Assembly: GCF_014639275.1 (NCBI RefSeq)
Contig: NZ_BMFW01000001.1
Span: 14,468-78,467 of the forward strand
From: Arthrobacter liuii
GTDB lineage: Bacteria > Actinomycetota > Actinomycetes > Actinomycetales > Micrococcaceae
DNA length: 64,000 nucleotides
Direction of reading: 5' to 3'
Shown piece after piece: positions 611-60,599 of the stretch. Numbering within the stretch: position 1 is the first letter of the stretch; each line of letters begins with the position of its first letter. Below the pieces are notes generated by a model, which had not been told where the DNA came from, ran no database searches, and saw nothing but the letters and a program-made list of their open reading frames with translations. The position numbers and the translations under genes are program-made.

Positions 611-640
611 CGCGGCTTGGGCGTTGCGGCCTTGACTTCC

Positions 641-660
641 ATTCGAACATGTTTTCGAAT
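641..660 (+). promoter_or_regulatory. LexA (SOS) box upstream of radical SAM gene
   Basis: The core at 643-658 reads TCGAAC-ATGT-TTTCGA, one mismatch from the actinobacterial LexA consensus TCGAAC-N4-GTTCGA. It is flanked so that 641-660 forms a palindrome with 7-bp arms (ATTCGAA / TTCGAAT). It ends 7 bases before the ATG at 668, a position from which bound LexA would block transcription. Confidence 0.8.
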
Positions 661-667
661 AGAGACC

Positions 668-1786
668 ATGAGATGGGAAGCGCAAGCACTCGTGCCGGCG
701 CCGGACGCTGCGGACGGAGGAGCAGGCCCGGCGTTGCTTCCGCTGGCAGGCCTGGTCCGCTCCGTGACCACCCCCGAGTTCGCCGGCATCACGTTCCACG
801 AGGTCACTGCCAAATCAGTGCTCAACCGGGTGCCGGCCGGGTCGAAGATGCCGTTCGAATGGACGGTGAATCCCTACCGTGGCTGCAGCCACGCCTGCGT
901 TTACTGCTTTGCCCGTAAAACGCACACTTATCTGGACTTCGACGCCGGCATGGACTTTGACAGCCAGGTGGTGGTGAAGGTGAACGCGGCGGAGGTCCTC
1001 CGCAAGGAACTGAACAAGGCATCCTGGACGCGGCAGCAGGTGGCACTGGGCACCAATACCGATCCCTACCAGCGGGCCGAGGGTCGGTACCGGCTCATGC
1101 CTGGAATCATTGCCGCCTTGGCGGAGTCCGGCACTCCCCTGTCCATCCTCACCAAGGGGACCCTGCTGGGGCGCGACATTCCGCTGCTCAAGAGCGCTGC
1201 CACGCAGGTGCCCTTGGGCCTGGGCATTTCGCTGGCCATGACGGACGAAGCCCTTTCGGAGGCGATCGAACCCGGCACCCCCGGCCCCCGGGCCCGGCTC
1301 AAACTGGTCTCCCGCTTGCGCGAGGCTGGACTGCCCTGCGGCGTGATGGCCATGCCCATCCTGCCGTGGCTGTCCGACGGCGACGAAGCCCTGGATGCGC
1401 TGTTCGGCTCGCTGGCGGCGGCCGGCGCAACGGGCGTGACCGCGGGTGCACTGTACCTGAAACCGGGTACCAGGGAATGGTTCATGAAGTGGATCGCGGC
1501 CAACCACCCCGAATTGGCAGGCCGCTACCGGCGGCTCTACGGGACCGGTTCCTATGCCTCCAAGGAGTACCGGACGTGGCTCGCGGCCAAGGTCCGCTAT
1601 TTCAAGGCACGCCATGGCTTTTCGCGTTCCTCCGGCTTCAGCCACCGCGACCTGGACAGCCCGGGCCTGGACGATCCACGGGCCGAGGAAGCGCAATACC
1701 CGGCCGGCAGCATTCCCGCCACCAGTAGAGATGGCGCCGCCACCGTTCCCGCCTCCCGGCCCTCGCAGCAGGACGCGCTCTTCTAG
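668..1786 (+). CDS. Rv2578c-family radical SAM protein (SplB-like)
   Basis: This 372-residue protein carries a radical SAM motif CX3CX2C at residues 73, 77 and 80 (RGCSHACVYC), which binds a 4Fe-4S cluster and S-adenosylmethionine. The region resembles spore photoproduct lyase-type enzymes and matches the Rv2578c family of Actinobacteria, whose substrate is not established. The ATG at 668 is chosen because the family begins with MRW-type sequence; an in-frame upstream start at 617 would place the coding region across the LexA box. The gene ends in a 4-base overlap with the stop of the convergent Nudix gene. The SOS box directly in front suggests expression after DNA damage, which would fit a DNA or nucleotide repair role; that role is inference. 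Confidence 0.88.
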   Translation: MRWEAQALVPAPDAADGGAGPALLPLAGLVRSVTTPEFAGITFHEVTAKSVLNRVPAGSKMPFEWTVNPYRGCSHACVYCFARKTHTYLDFDAGMDFDSQVVVKVNAAEVLRKELNKASWTRQQVALGTNTDPYQRAEGRYRLMPGIIAALAESGTPLSILTKGTLLGRDIPLLKSAATQVPLGLGISLAMTDEALSEAIEPGTPGPRARLKLVSRLREAGLPCGVMAMPILPWLSDGDEALDALFGSLAAAGATGVTAGALYLKPGTREWFMKWIAANHPELAGRYRRLYGTGSYASKEYRTWLAAKVRYFKARHGFSRSSGFSHRDLDSPGLDDPRAEEAQYPAGSIPATSRDGAATVPASRPSQQDALF

Positions 1787-14993: not shown

Positions 14994-15494
14994 TCAGTGC
15001 GTGGGGACGAAGAGCTGCTGGCCCGGAAGCACGGTTGCAGCGGGGAGGTTGTTGAGCTGGACGATGTCCGCCACCACGTCCCGCGCATCCCGGTCCGAAG
15101 CCACAGCGCCCGCGATGGTCCACAGCGACTGGCCGGCCTGCACCGTCACCGTAACCGTTGGCGTCACTGCAAGATCGGCGGCGGAATCCGAGGCCTTCGC
15201 CGGCGAGTTGAAAAGTCCGGACAGCGACAGCAGGAAAACGGCGAGGAGTACGACCGGAACTCCGATCAGGACGATCCGACCCCGGCGGGTCAACCGAAGC
15301 GGCGCCGACGGCGGTGCAGCCGCTGCCGGACCGAACGTGCTGCCCCGTTCCGCCTTGGCCGCCCGTTGCTTTGAGGGTACGTGGTGTCCCGTTGACTCCC
15401 GCCGGCCACGTGCGGACACGCGCTTCGAAGGGTTACCTCGCTTCAGGGAAACGGGTTCCGACGGTGAAACCTGGTGAAGAGATAAAGCTGACAT
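14994..15494 (-). CDS. LysM membrane protein, probable SOS cell-division suppressor (Rv2719c/YneA-like)
   Basis: The 166-residue protein has a basic, Ser-rich cytoplasmic part (1-70), one membrane helix (about 73-92, IVLIGVPVVLLAVFLLSL) and an external LysM domain (about 110-164, TVTVQAGQSLWTIAGAV ... VLPGQQLFVPTH) that binds peptidoglycan. It is divergent from lexA, with two LexA boxes in between. The same arrangement and architecture occur in mycobacterial Rv2719c, and in function in YneA of Bacillus and DivS of Corynebacterium, which stop division after DNA damage. Here that role is inference from context. The ATG at 15494 follows AGGAGG nine bases upstream. Confidence 0.85.
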   Translation of the reverse strand: MSALSLHQVSPSEPVSLKRGNPSKRVSARGRRESTGHHVPSKQRAAKAERGSTFGPAAAAPPSAPLRLTRRGRIVLIGVPVVLLAVFLLSLSGLFNSPAKASDSAADLAVTPTVTVTVQAGQSLWTIAGAVASDRDARDVVADIVQLNNLPAATVLPGQQLFVPTH

Positions 15495-15612
15495 GAACTA
15501 AGCCCTCCTGGACCTGCCGTGCTGCCCGGGTGTCCGCCCGCCGCTGCCCCTGTCACTCACACCGTGTCCGGAACTTCTTCCGGCCACGCCTTCGAATGGG
15601 GCATCCACAGGT

Positions 15613-15628
15613 TAGAACACATGTTCGA
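15613..15628. promoter_or_regulatory. LexA box 1 (LysM side)
   Basis: TAGAAC-ACAT-GTTCGA, one mismatch from TCGAAC-N4-GTTCGA. Confidence 0.85.
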
Positions 15629-15679
15629 ACTTTGCTTGTTAAGTTTTAGCACCTATCAACGAACAATGTCGAGACTCGC

Positions 15680-15695
15680 TAGAACAAATGTTTGA
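15680..15695. promoter_or_regulatory. LexA box 2 (lexA side)
   Basis: TAGAAC-AAAT-GTTTGA, two mismatches from the consensus. It is 67 bases from box 1, so two LexA dimers could bind separately and control the two directions. Confidence 0.8.
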
Positions 15696-15849
15696 AAAAG
15701 CGATGTGGCTGGCCTAGCTTTGAAACCAAAGAACAACCACCAGTGAAGTTGAACAGCAGGGTCTGACAATGACAGTGGGAGTCTTCCCGGCGGCACTGTG
15801 AACAGTGGCTTGCGGGAGATCCGGCGGCAAGCGAAAGGCATTGGCGAAT

Positions 15850-26451: not shown

Positions 26452-26593
26452 GGTTGACACCTCTAATGCTTTCTCGATGGTGGCCTTCGCGGCCGTTGTA
26501 TTGGTCATCTCTGACGCTAAGGGGACCCACTGACATTCCGGCCGGAGGACAACGCCTATGTGGATAAACCCGATAGAAAAAGCATAGCGTTAT

Positions 26594-34129: not shown

Positions 34130-35038
34130 TCAGGAGAAGACCAGCCCCGCTTCCGCCAAATCCCCGCGGATGGTTTCGATCTCGGTTTCGTCCGGCTCCA
34201 CGAGGGGCAAACGGACAATCGAGTTGGGCAGGACTCCCTGCCATTTAAGAATCTGTTTGGCCGCTACGGCCCCCTGGACACGGGTCATCGTTGCGCGGAC
34301 CACCGGCTGCAGCTCGAAGTTGATCTTGCGGGCAGTGCCAAGGTCGTTGGCGTTGACGGCGTCAATGAGTTCGCGGAAGCGGCGGGTGGCCACGTGCGTG
34401 GTGACACCCACCAGGCCGACGGCGCCCAGCGCCATCCAGGGAAGGGTCAGTCCGTCATCGCCCGAGTAGAAGAGGAGGTCGGTTTCCGCCATGACACGGG
34501 TAGCTGCGGTGAAATCGGCCTTGGCGTCCTTGACGGCGACGATGTTGGGGTGCTGGGCCAGGCGGATCATGGTGTCCGGCTCGATGGGGATGGATGACCG
34601 GCCGGGAATGTCGTACAGCATGACGGGGACGTCCACGGCGGAGGCGATGGTCTCGAAGTGGGCGCGGACACCGGCCTGGCTGGGCTTGTTGTAGTAAGGG
34701 GTCACCAGGAGGAGTCCGTCGACGCCGAGGGCAGCAGCCTGCTGGGAGAGGTGGACTGAGTGCGCCGTGTCATTGGTGCCGGTACCGGCAATGATGGCCG
34801 CCCGGCCGCCTACGGCGTCCTTCACGGCGCGGAACATGCCGAGGTTTTCTTCGTCCGTGAGTGTGGACGTTTCGCCGGTGGTGCCGGTCACCACCAGGCC
34901 GTCGCAGCCGTCGTCGACCAGCTTGCTGGCCAGCGCTGCCGCCTGGTCGTAATCCACGGCGCCGTCCTTGGTGAACGGCGTGACCATGGCGGTCAGGAGG
35001 GTACCGAGGGCAGGGATGTGCGCGGAAGAATCAGCCAT
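34130..35038 (-). CDS. dapA: 4-hydroxy-tetrahydrodipicolinate synthase
   Basis: The 302-residue TIM barrel has VVTGTTGETSTLT, TPYYNKPSQAG, the Tyr region LYDIPGRSSI and the Schiff-base lysine in IVAVKDAKAD. It condenses pyruvate with aspartate semialdehyde, the first committed step of lysine/DAP synthesis; dapB and dapF are in the same window. ATG at 35038 follows a TAACGT hexamer at seven bases, so the mRNA is probably leaderless. Confidence 0.96.
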   Translation of the reverse strand: MADSSAHIPALGTLLTAMVTPFTKDGAVDYDQAAALASKLVDDGCDGLVVTGTTGETSTLTDEENLGMFRAVKDAVGGRAAIIAGTGTNDTAHSVHLSQQAAALGVDGLLLVTPYYNKPSQAGVRAHFETIASAVDVPVMLYDIPGRSSIPIEPDTMIRLAQHPNIVAVKDAKADFTAATRVMAETDLLFYSGDDGLTLPWMALGAVGLVGVTTHVATRRFRELIDAVNANDLGTARKINFELQPVVRATMTRVQGAVAAKQILKWQGVLPNSIVRLPLVEPDETEIETIRGDLAEAGLVFS

Positions 35039-35096: not shown

Positions 35097-35630
35097 TCAA
35101 ATACGTCGCTGCCCGGGCCGCGGCGCATCTGCTCCGGCATGGCAATAGCGGCCGACGGCGGCCTGCCGGAGGTCCTCAGCCCAGGAAGCGAGCCGTTGGG
35201 CAGCCCGCACGTAGTGGAACAGCTCCGTGGGCGTCAGGGCGTCGATATCCGTTTCCGCCAGCCGGCGGGCCAGCTCCGCCCCCTCCGGCTGCGCAGCCAG
35301 GCTGACGCCTTCGCGTTCCCACGTGACGTCCTCGGCCGGGCGCCCGGAGACCAGTTGGCGGAACAGGTAGTCCACTACTCCCGGGCTCAGCGCTTTCAGC
35401 GGCCCGCCCCCGGCGTCCGCACCTCCAGGCGGCGGGCCTGCCGGACGGGAACCTGCCGACTTGCTCCTGGGCTGCGGGTTTCCCGATAGCAGGCTTCCTG
35501 GCCGCGCAGTGGTTCCTGGCTGGACAGTGGCTGGCTGCACAGCGGCTGGGGGCTGCACAGTTGCCGAGGGCTGGCGTTCCCGCCCCTGCGGTGCGGGGGC
35601 TCCGAATGATCGCATCTCCATGGCAGCCAT
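35097..35630 (-). CDS. Unknown 177-residue protein with a LexA box at its start
   Basis: I do not recognise this gene with certainty. The first ~75 residues are low-complexity, rich in Pro, Gln, Ala, Gly and Ser (for example VQPPAAVQPATVQPG). Residues ~78-165 look folded and helical: ALSPGVVDYLFRQLVSGRP and DIDALTPTELFHYVRAAQRL followed by ASWAEDLRQAAVGRY. The last helix resembles the N-terminal helix of DUF222 proteins, but there is no HNH motif. No signal peptide or membrane helix. ATG at 35630 is two bases after a LexA palindrome; the mRNA would be leaderless or start within the box. ATGs at 35621 and 35615 are alternatives. SOS-controlled expression is likely; function is unknown. Confidence 0.7.
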   Translation of the reverse strand: MAAMEMRSFGAPAPQGRERQPSATVQPPAAVQPATVQPGTTARPGSLLSGNPQPRSKSAGSRPAGPPPGGADAGGGPLKALSPGVVDYLFRQLVSGRPAEDVTWEREGVSLAAQPEGAELARRLAETDIDALTPTELFHYVRAAQRLASWAEDLRQAAVGRYCHAGADAPRPGQRRI

Positions 35631-35632
35631 AT

Positions 35633-35654
35633 TATTCGAACATATATTCGAATA
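35633..35654 (-). promoter_or_regulatory. LexA box overlapping start of unknown gene
   Basis: The core 35636-35651 reads TCGAAC-ATAT-ATTCGA on the plus strand, one mismatch from the consensus, in a palindrome with 8-bp arms (TATTCGAA / TTCGAATA). It is the most symmetric LexA box in the window. It lies between the unknown gene and the divergent acyltransferase-like gene at 35725. Confidence 0.8.
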
Positions 35655-35724
35655 CAAGGGTTGGCCGGCGGAGGTGCCTCGCCTTGACAAGCCAGCCCGC
35701 GAGGCCATGTGAGACGATCTGGTC

Positions 35725-36960
35725 GTGACGTCCCGAACCCCGGCCACCCGGTCCCGGAAGACCCCAAACCGGCAGGAACCGGGGCGCCTTCGGGGCATCG
35801 ATGCCGCCCGGGGCCTGGCATTACTCGGGATGATGGCAACCCACCTGCTGCCGACGTTCGAATCAAATGCCGATCTCACGCCAACCTGGATAGGCCTCAC
35901 GTTCTCCGGGCGGGCGGCCGCCCTCTTCGCCGTCCTTGCCGGTGTGGGACTTGCCCTGTCCACTGGAAAGGACAAGCCGCTGGAAGGCGCCGAACTCTCC
36001 GCGGCACGGCGCGGCGTGGCGCTGCGCGCCCTGGTGATTGCCGCCGTCGGGTTTACCCTGGGCGGCCTGGAAGTGAACGTGGCCATTATCCTGGTCCACT
36101 ACGCGGTGCTGTTCCTTTGCATCCTCCCCTTCCTGGGATTGGGAGCGAAGCGGCTGTGGGCGTGGGCGGCCGGGTGGATTTTAGCGTCTCCCCTCCTGGC
36201 GTACCTGCTGCGGCCTTGGCTCCTTGCCCCGGAACCGCCGCTCAAGCTGGGCCACAATCCGGGCTGGGAGGACCTCGGAACGCCTGCCCGGTTGCTCGCC
36301 GATGTGTTCCTCACGGGCTACTACCCCGTCCTGCAGTGGCTTTCGTATTTGCTGGTGGGGCTGGCAATCGGCCGCCTGGTCCTCGCCAAAGCCCTGGTTC
36401 CCGTGCTGCTGGTGGCGGGCGGAACCGTGGTGGCCGTTGCGGCGAAGACCTTGGGTGTGGCGGCCATGGAGGATTGGGGCGGCCGGGCGGCGCTGGAGAA
36501 GGTGCTCAATTCGCCGGGTTACCCGCTGGGCAGTGTGCTGCAGGTGAACCTCACAGGGATCCCGCAGGAAGGCTCGTGGTGGTGGCTGGCGTCGGCCGCA
36601 CCGCACTCGGGCACCCCGCTTGACCTGCTGCACACGTCGGGAGTGGCGGCGGCTGTCATTGGTGCCTGCCTGCTCCTGGGGCGCCTCGCCGAATGGGTGG
36701 ACCTGGACCTGCTGCTGCCGCTGCGGGGGGCCGGTGCCATGACGCTGACCCTGTACACCGTCCACGTCTGGGTGGTCTCCGGCTTCTACCTGAAACCCCT
36801 GCCGGGAGGCTGGACCGAGGACGGGATGTACTTTGTCCAGGCGGCCACTGCCATCACTGTCGGCATTGTGTTCGCACGGCTGCAGTGGCGCGGCCCGCTG
36901 GAATGGGCAGCCCATGCGGCGAGCCTGGTGGGGCGCGGGGGCTTCAAAGCCGTGCCCTGA
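35725..36960 (+). CDS. Polytopic membrane protein, DUF1624/DUF418 acyltransferase-like
   Basis: The 411-residue protein has about ten membrane helices and begins, after a basic tail, with RLRGIDAARGLALLGMMATHLLP, the motif of heparan-alpha-glucosaminide N-acetyltransferase-like (DUF1624) and YeiB-like (DUF418) proteins. These are thought to transfer acyl groups across the membrane; the His in MATHLLP is the likely catalytic residue. The second half contains GAGAMTLTLYTVHVW, typical of DUF418. Substrate unknown. The GTG start is the best available, without a clear ribosome site. It is divergent from the SOS-box gene, whose LexA box is 71 bases away. Confidence 0.8.
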   Translation: MTSRTPATRSRKTPNRQEPGRLRGIDAARGLALLGMMATHLLPTFESNADLTPTWIGLTFSGRAAALFAVLAGVGLALSTGKDKPLEGAELSAARRGVALRALVIAAVGFTLGGLEVNVAIILVHYAVLFLCILPFLGLGAKRLWAWAAGWILASPLLAYLLRPWLLAPEPPLKLGHNPGWEDLGTPARLLADVFLTGYYPVLQWLSYLLVGLAIGRLVLAKALVPVLLVAGGTVVAVAAKTLGVAAMEDWGGRAALEKVLNSPGYPLGSVLQVNLTGIPQEGSWWWLASAAPHSGTPLDLLHTSGVAAAVIGACLLLGRLAEWVDLDLLLPLRGAGAMTLTLYTVHVWVVSGFYLKPLPGGWTEDGMYFVQAATAITVGIVFARLQWRGPLEWAAHAASLVGRGGFKAVP

Positions 36961-37239: not shown

Positions 37240-37713
37240 CTAGGACGCCGTGGTGAAGAGCCTGACGGCGTCGCGCATGGATGCGCGCGCACGTTTGCGG
37301 TCGCCGGCGGCGTCGTAGGCGCAGCTCAGCCGGAACCAGGAACGCCAGTCGCCGGGAGCGGCCTCGGCTTCGGCACGGTACTTTTCGAACTCCGCGTCCG
37401 CCGCGGCCCGGACAATCCGGCCGCCGGGCGTGCGTGGCAGCTCATCCACCGGTAGCCCCCCTTCGGCCTCCAGGAGCTTGGCCATCTGTTCGGTGCGGGC
37501 ACCGAACATCAGTTCGCGGATGAGGGCCCATGCCCCGACGATGGGCAGCACCAGGTAGGCGGCGCCAATGGCCTTGGCTGTCAGGTTGCTGTCCGCCAGG
37601 AGCAGGAGGGAACGCTGGAAGGACACCACCAGGTAGAAGACCAGCAGGAGCGTAACCGCCCCCACCCAGATCTTGGTGCGGTTCTTCCGGAAGCCGGCGG
37701 CCAATCCGTTCAT
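37240..37713 (-). CDS. Membrane protein with TPR-like C-terminus
   Basis: The 157-residue protein has two membrane helices (about 14-32, IWVGAVTLLLVFYLVV, and 44-66, AIGAAYLVLPIVGAWALI) and a C-terminal helical pair, EFEKYRAEAEAAPGDWRSW followed by FRLSCAYDAAGDRKRARASM, that resembles a tetratricopeptide repeat. No enzymatic motif is seen. The ATG lies 3 bases after the dapB stop, so it is probably co-transcribed with dapB; a link to lysine synthesis is not implied. Confidence 0.8.
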   Translation of the reverse strand: MNGLAAGFRKNRTKIWVGAVTLLLVFYLVVSFQRSLLLLADSNLTAKAIGAAYLVLPIVGAWALIRELMFGARTEQMAKLLEAEGGLPVDELPRTPGGRIVRAAADAEFEKYRAEAEAAPGDWRSWFRLSCAYDAAGDRKRARASMRDAVRLFTTAS

Positions 37714-60375: not shown

Positions 60376-60599
60376 GAACAACTCCTATAAGAAGAAAAAA
60401 TTAGGGACGAACGACGGCGGCGAAAGAGGCCGCGTCGCACGTTTCAGTTATCTGCCACGCACCTCGGGCCGGGATGCCACGCACTATGGCGAGTGTACGA
60501 CGGACCTGCGTTGGGTTTTTCCGGCGGCCTGGGAGTGGCATCGGGCCTGTCGGAGCCGGGCGGCTTCGATCGAAAGATCGAAAGACGTCCGGCGAAGGG

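Follow-up and report, generated by a model that had tools for sequence, protein, structure and literature searches.

SulA, YneA, ChiZ (Rv2719c) and DivS are small division inhibitors that are induced in the SOS response. DUF222/13E12 HNH proteins (PF02720, PF01844) are common in actinobacteria, sometimes have SOS boxes and are functionally obscure. In the available part of an earlier report, 13E12 HNH genes were among the LexA targets of Mycobacterium tuberculosis (PMC4181829), and in that of another, the HNH nuclease MSMEG_1275 of M. smegmatis was described to cleave DNA and to kill cells (PMC9416677); the latter text, as far as it was available, mentions neither "DUF222" nor "13E12". Among the papers listed on LexA or the SOS response with Arthrobacter, 13E12, DUF222-HNH or leaderless promoters, the titles and the opening parts of the abstracts name no gene such as the one described here.

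This gene lies in a 64,000-nucleotide stretch of Arthrobacter liuii DNA, which was analysed as a whole and is called the window. Like the recA, lexA and dnaE2 genes of the actinobacterial LexA regulon, it has a near-consensus SOS box, but here the space between the hexamers of a probable leaderless promoter is taken up exactly by the box, and no known repair protein matches the product. As with SulA, YneA, ChiZ and DivS, the product is small, an SOS box is present and the gene is free-standing, but the protein has no LysM or other domain match. With DUF222/13E12 HNH proteins it has an N-terminal head in common, as judged by profile comparison, and its promoter layout is also found on two DUF222 genes of a sister genus; the small protein has no DUF222 body, HNH domain or Pfam match, and it is 99–239 aa long within the genus, whereas DUF222 open frames are mostly 450–850 aa long. 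The locus adds a probable core SOS gene to those of Arthrobacter/Pseudarthrobacter and offers a handle on the DUF222/13E12 HNH proteins; its probable leaderless promoter is unusually clean, the LexA box forming the -35/-10 spacer. The features of the locus are as follows.

34130..35038, minus strand: dapA, the downstream neighbour (Pfam DHDPS), detected in 85/90 loci
35100..35621, minus strand: small protein of 174 aa (stop codon 35097-35099), its leaderless ATG kept in 90/90 loci and its core in frame in 88/90
35142..35402, minus strand: conserved 87-aa core, dN/dS ~0.11
35142..35342, minus strand: DUF222-head-like part of the core by profile comparison, with two helices at residues 113-123 and 131-161 of the model
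35403..35621, minus strand: disordered N-terminal part, unconserved in both sequence and length
35629..35634, minus strand: -10 hexamer TAATAT, at 17-bp spacing to the -35 hexamer; TANNAT in 89/90 loci, TATCCT in one
35633..35654, minus strand: LexA-type palindrome that fills the promoter spacer, 13/14 against the LexA consensus, its 16-bp core the same in 83/90 loci of the genus
35652..35657, minus strand: probable -35 hexamer TTGTAT; TTGTNT in 88/90 loci, matching 3/6 positions of the E. coli consensus
35725..36960, plus strand: HGSNAT-like membrane acyltransferase, the divergent neighbour (Pfam HGSNAT_cat), in 75/90 loci within ~1.5 kb

LexA-type box and promoter

The initial annotation had singled out the 22-mer at 35633-35654, TATTCGAACATATATTCGAATA, as the most symmetric LexA-type box in the window. 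Its LexA-type character was upheld, since the 18-bp core agrees at 13/14 positions with the actinobacterial LexA consensus TTCGAACNNNNGTTCGAA, a score that is the best in the window and is reached there by two other sites, the lexA upstream box (15612) and one at a radical-SAM gene (642). Its symmetry (10/11 palindromic pairs) is by itself not above chance: two 22-mers of such symmetry were found in the window (35633 and 37487), versus a Markov mean of 1.75, and the palindrome at 37487 is not LexA-like. In 20 window-sized Markov replicates, no site of at least 12/14 was found, and CGAACN4GTTCG with up to two mismatches was weakly enriched in the window (55 sites versus 36 expected). The box also fits the refined M. 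tuberculosis LexA motif core TCGAAMRYWTGTTCGA, as given in the available part of PMC4181829, except at one position (T for M), with a misfit at two of the four flanking positions. Such a near-consensus box is a feature of the LexA/SOS regulon, of which the gene is a probable member.

Among the best LexA-like sites of the window, the small gene accounts for one and lexA or recA for three. Sites of 12/14 are located at 26593, ~85 bp upstream of recA, and at 60565-60582 (TTCGATCGAAAGATCGAA), and sites of 11/14 at 15679, the second lexA box, and 18275. The two lexA boxes lie at 15612-15696, in the gap that separates lexA from the divergent LysM gene (14994-15494). The 13/14 box at 642-659 falls within the longest frame of the radical-SAM gene (617-1786, plus strand), with TAGAGA and an ATG 2 nt on. 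Elsewhere in the same genome, a LexA-type box, TTCGAATATGTATTCGAA (L002:1501-1518), lies between a DUF6504/dnaE2 region and a 141-aa frame for which no Pfam match was found; dnaE2 and recA were recognised by eye.

Across the 90 fetched loci of the genus, the box is part of a nearly fixed 30-nt block, C-TTGTNT-TCGAATATATGTTCGAA-TANNAT, whose information content is 54.3 bits versus 3.6 bits in an equal length of flank. The -35 and -10 hexamers are spaced by 17 bp and this spacer is the LexA box, in keeping with the earlier claim that the box is placed to control the gene. All 90 loci have an ATG 6-7 nt past the -10 hexamer, and 88 of them have the core in frame with it; counted from where the 16-bp box core begins, this ATG lies at 29 nt in 60 loci and at 30 nt in 30. 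Judged by sequence alone, the box overlaps the promoter, as in the LexA/SOS regulon, and the block reads as a leaderless promoter with a LexA site between its hexamers. The lexA gene of M. tuberculosis is leaderless, according to the available part of PMC2897130.

The open frame at 35097-35630 (minus strand), which had been taken as a 177-residue protein with its ATG two bases after the box, does exist. Translation probably starts at the genus-conserved ATG at 35621 rather than at 35630, giving 174 aa, because the ATG at 35628-35630 overlaps the conserved -10 hexamer. LexA binding to the box and induction of the gene by DNA damage are very probable.

A scan for consensus promoters reported no promoter on the minus strand, where the -35 hexamer is a poor one of the E. 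coli type (3/6), and one site on the plus strand, at 35620-35648, which overlaps the LexA box. This site, the only promoter-like one that the scan reported here, would suit a box that serves the divergent acyltransferase, with the small frame incidental, and so would the position of the palindrome between both genes, 70 bp from the acyltransferase start. Control of this kind is nevertheless very improbable, as it is on the minus strand that the hexamers and the ATG are conserved, 90/90 loci have the box versus 75 in which the acyltransferase was found, and purifying selection acts on the small frame.

Conservation and surroundings of the gene

When the proteins of 149 relatives were searched, 91 genomes matched, all of the same genus and one with a fragment, and 58 gave no match; among the matches listed, no genome of the genus was without the gene (91/91). 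In a family-wide draw of 395 genomes, the core profile matched 88, of which 76 belong to the genus and 12 are spread over three other genera, and one genome of the genus was listed without a match. Counts of loci refer to 90 of the 91 genus genomes, the one with the fragment being left out. The gene gives one strong match per genome, and within the genus it is free-standing and in a fixed place.

The initial annotation had proposed conservation of the box, synteny and selection on the frame as checks, and each was borne out. A LexA-type box precedes the gene in 90/90 loci of the genus and in 10/10 short orthologues of two other genera, and the exact layout pattern was found in 77 of 80 named loci, mostly from Arthrobacter/Pseudarthrobacter (76 in frame), the remaining three having variant boxes. 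The idea that this box is more conserved than any other LexA box was rejected: such strong fixation is not unique to the gene, because the proximal box of lexA is identical in 29/30 loci (the closest 30 of 61 genomes). The lexA boxes in these 30 loci have a motif identical in kind to that of the small-gene box.

The 87-aa core is under purifying selection, with a median dN/dS of 0.11 (270 usable of 400 random pairs) and a variability of 0.125/0.085/0.401 by codon position. These core statistics cover 86 of the 90 loci, the excluded ones being L018 and L019, which the core pattern missed, and the two broken frames, L049 and L090. In the latter two the promoter and core are present, and the frame is broken within the variable tail, by a true break or a sequencing error.

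These two broken frames out of 90, and the truncated look of the protein next to DUF222-HNH proteins, would be in line with a decaying, functionless relic of a DUF222-HNH gene. A relic is extremely improbable, however, in view of the dN/dS of ~0.11, the many invariant core residues, a nearly invariant promoter, and the occurrence of the gene in 91/91 genus genomes (one fragment) and in 76 of the family-wide draw with a single listed miss.

Pfam matches (DHDPS and HGSNAT_cat) agreed with the earlier placement of the gene between dapA and an acyltransferase-like gene, and both neighbours recur within ~1.5 kb in the 90 genus loci at the frequencies given above (85/90 and 75/90). Near the 10 short orthologues of other genera, dapA was found in 10 cases and the acyltransferase in nine. 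The gap to dapA measures 58 to 980 nt in 83 loci, and a nitrilase-like frame (by eye) lies between the gene and dapA in three inspected loci. An SOS-driven dapA operon was considered and rejected; dapA is probably not under the SOS promoter because the gap varies so widely, and the stretch before dapA looked alike in the loci inspected. A phage or plasmid origin was also rejected, as neither phages nor viral contigs yielded a match; one match was located on a 1.35-Mb Arthrobacter replicon classed as a plasmid. Membership in a known phage family was likewise set aside, PHROG models giving no match.

The neighbourhood also bears on whether the product is a DNA-repair accessory, for example of a dnaE2 mutasome or of RecA, in which the head fold would be a protein-binding module only. 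The same genome has LexA-type boxes at lexA, recA, the radical-SAM gene and the DUF6504/dnaE2 region, and LexA-controlled 13E12 HNH proteins of M. tuberculosis were proposed to act in a mismatch-repair-like system, according to the available part of PMC4181829. The gene is flanked, however, by dapA and the acyltransferase, or by the nitrilase-like frame, and by no repair genes, and such a role appears quite unlikely.

The small protein and its likeness to DUF222 heads

The core follows the pattern SPGVVD-LFR-LV ... W--EG ... GAELARRL ... LTP-ELF-YVRA-QRL--WAE ... YC. The part before it is rich in Gly, Pro, Ala and Ser and ranges from 13 to 141 residues among 86 proteins of the genus; the disordered Pro/Gln/Ala-rich half described earlier is real but variable in length. 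In an AlphaFold2 model built from 59 sequences (the window protein and those of 58 of 76 in-frame loci), the N-terminal part is disordered and three helices span residues 80-91, 113-123 and 131-161. The model is weak overall (pTM 0.37, mean pLDDT 65.9) and most reliable in its long final helix (block pLDDT 87-95).

Among solved structures, the best sequence match had an E value of 0.59 or worse, and no fold match was obtained at E<=0.001. The window protein matched no NCBIfam entry and no Pfam family at E<=10, DUF222 at its gathering score included, and four orthologues gave no Pfam match except for one weak match to another family. Pfam detected neither a C-terminal HNH domain, the protein ending after the head, nor a LysM domain of the kind expected for a ChiZ-type inhibitor. 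Known anti-phage defence proteins were set aside, as no PADLOC family matched at E<=1.

The initial annotation had noted that the last helix resembles DUF222 without HNH and had called for a DUF222 profile search. Pfam gave no match, as stated, but hhalign comparison with 15 DUF222 N-termini from Pfam-found loci gave a probability of 91.4 and an E value of 9e-7, these 15 having been picked after inspection from 29, with a similar-looking one placed first; the likeness extends over 66 columns, beyond a single helix. By profile comparison the protein is thus homologous to the N-terminal head of DUF222 proteins, many of which are HNH nucleases, despite its failure to reach the Pfam gathering score. 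Comparison with 12 heads picked by the profile gave a probability of 97.9 and an E value of 3e-13, which are biased because that alignment was built from matches of the profile itself. For the first helix of the core no clear equivalent is seen in DUF222, and a head of two helices makes convergence easier; both points count against descent from DUF222.

The 12 matches outside the genus comprise 10 short orthologues, nine in one genus, of which at least one genome is without the gene, and one in another, plus two matches in a third genus. The latter pair are parts of frames of 592-595 aa, both above the DUF222 cut-off, and the one that was scanned contains DUF222 (Pfam, 7e-22) and a sub-threshold HNH match. 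When a profile of 24 of 26 chosen representatives was run on 127 long frames from 36 DUF222 loci, this pair scored 1.4e-8 and 2.5e-5 and all others at least 0.04. A broader profile matched 43/396 genomes order-wide and 40/394 class-wide, genus members included, and its matches outside the family were weak (about 1e-9 to 0.01). Most of the 25 inspected loci are the N-terminal portions of long frames, or of frames that a contig end interrupts, and eight of the 10 matched frames that were scanned with Pfam are DUF222. Short heads outside the family were rejected, as the inspected ones were frames cut by contig ends, one antisense-looking chance match, and L290. In L290, a 185-aa frame with a DUF222-like head precedes what by eye resembles a tyrosine integrase, and it is probably a DUF222 gene cut by insertion of a mobile element.

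The promoter layout was compared in 16 further loci, consisting of four of the genus, 10 short orthologues and two full DUF222 genes. In 16/16, a box of 11-13/14 abuts TANNNT with an ATG 6-7 nt beyond it, and the -35 hexamer is unconserved outside the genus. The two full-length DUF222 genes, from a sister genus, have an identical arrangement of box, -10 hexamer and leaderless ATG. This likeness in promoter layout and head points to an SOS-controlled DUF222-HNH gene as the likely ancestor, whose body and nuclease would have been lost, and the small protein is most readily seen as an offshoot that consists of the head only.

Proposed role and LexA boxes at DUF222 genes

In the proposed mechanism, a LexA dimer would occupy the palindrome between the hexamers of a sigma-70-type promoter, where it fills the 17-bp spacer, and would exclude RNA polymerase. 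Upon DNA damage, RecA would trigger self-cleavage of LexA and free the promoter, and a leaderless mRNA would begin at or beside the ATG at 35621. The product would consist of a variable disordered tail and a helical core, the second part of which would be a stand-alone DUF222 (13E12) head, retained with the promoter from an ancestral SOS-controlled DUF222-HNH gene that dropped its body and HNH domain. The free head would dock, head-to-head or head-to-body, on full-length DUF222-HNH proteins and thereby restrain or direct them during the SOS response. From LexA-blocked promoter to docking, this is the best explanation as a whole, and a tentative one.

DUF222 matches were found in 150/150 genomes of the genus, at 1-20 each, and the simplest role for a free head would therefore be to bind these proteins as a brake or adaptor; a function as partner or brake of DUF222-HNH enzymes is possible, if rather unlikely. 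It is unlikely, too, that the gene encodes a genus-wide SOS factor, pared down from a DUF222-HNH gene to promoter and head, that controls the remaining full-length DUF222-HNH nucleases through heterotypic head contacts; such a factor would be a trans-acting brake or targeting subunit of the poorly understood 13E12 nuclease family and would be released only upon DNA damage. DUF222 is present in 27/32 genera of the family versus three for the short gene, and DUF222 proteins therefore do not need the short gene. If the head does restrain DUF222-HNH enzymes, the SOS response can induce a brake for that family. In any case, a head-only relative maintained by selection lends itself to a search for the binding partners of the head.

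Alternatively, the product may be an SOS-induced brake on growth or division, similar to SulA, ChiZ or DivS and acting via another protein, with a core that binds a target unrelated to DUF222. A near-fixed, near-consensus box with its promoter elements would be expected for a tightly controlled harmful product, and the gene is free-standing in a fixed place with one strong match per genome. Against this, the small protein has no LysM or other Pfam domain, and the profile link to DUF222 heads would be left unexplained. Moreover, the LysM gene adjoining lexA (14994-15494) already fits the position of ChiZ (Rv2719c) in M. tuberculosis. A division brake is regarded as an unlikely reading.

For the preferred reading, a head-only product acting on DUF222-HNH proteins, the control of DUF222 genes themselves is of interest. 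Sites of at least 12/14 were found in 3/29 Pfam-found DUF222 loci and in 6/25 profile-found loci, versus none in 544,359 positions of Markov versions of these loci. In five of the six profile-found loci the box precedes the head, and Pfam confirms DUF222 in three of those five. LexA boxes at DUF222 genes are thus real, yet a minority here. In the window's own genome, the five DUF222 genes have no strong LexA box in the stretches examined (best 10/14), and the proposed partners therefore do not look co-regulated there. In two DUF222 genes, L285 and L293, a LexA box overlaps the probable start, and its half-site ATGTTCGA would encode Met-Phe-Asp/Glu; it is possible that such a start is a mark of SOS-controlled 13E12 genes.
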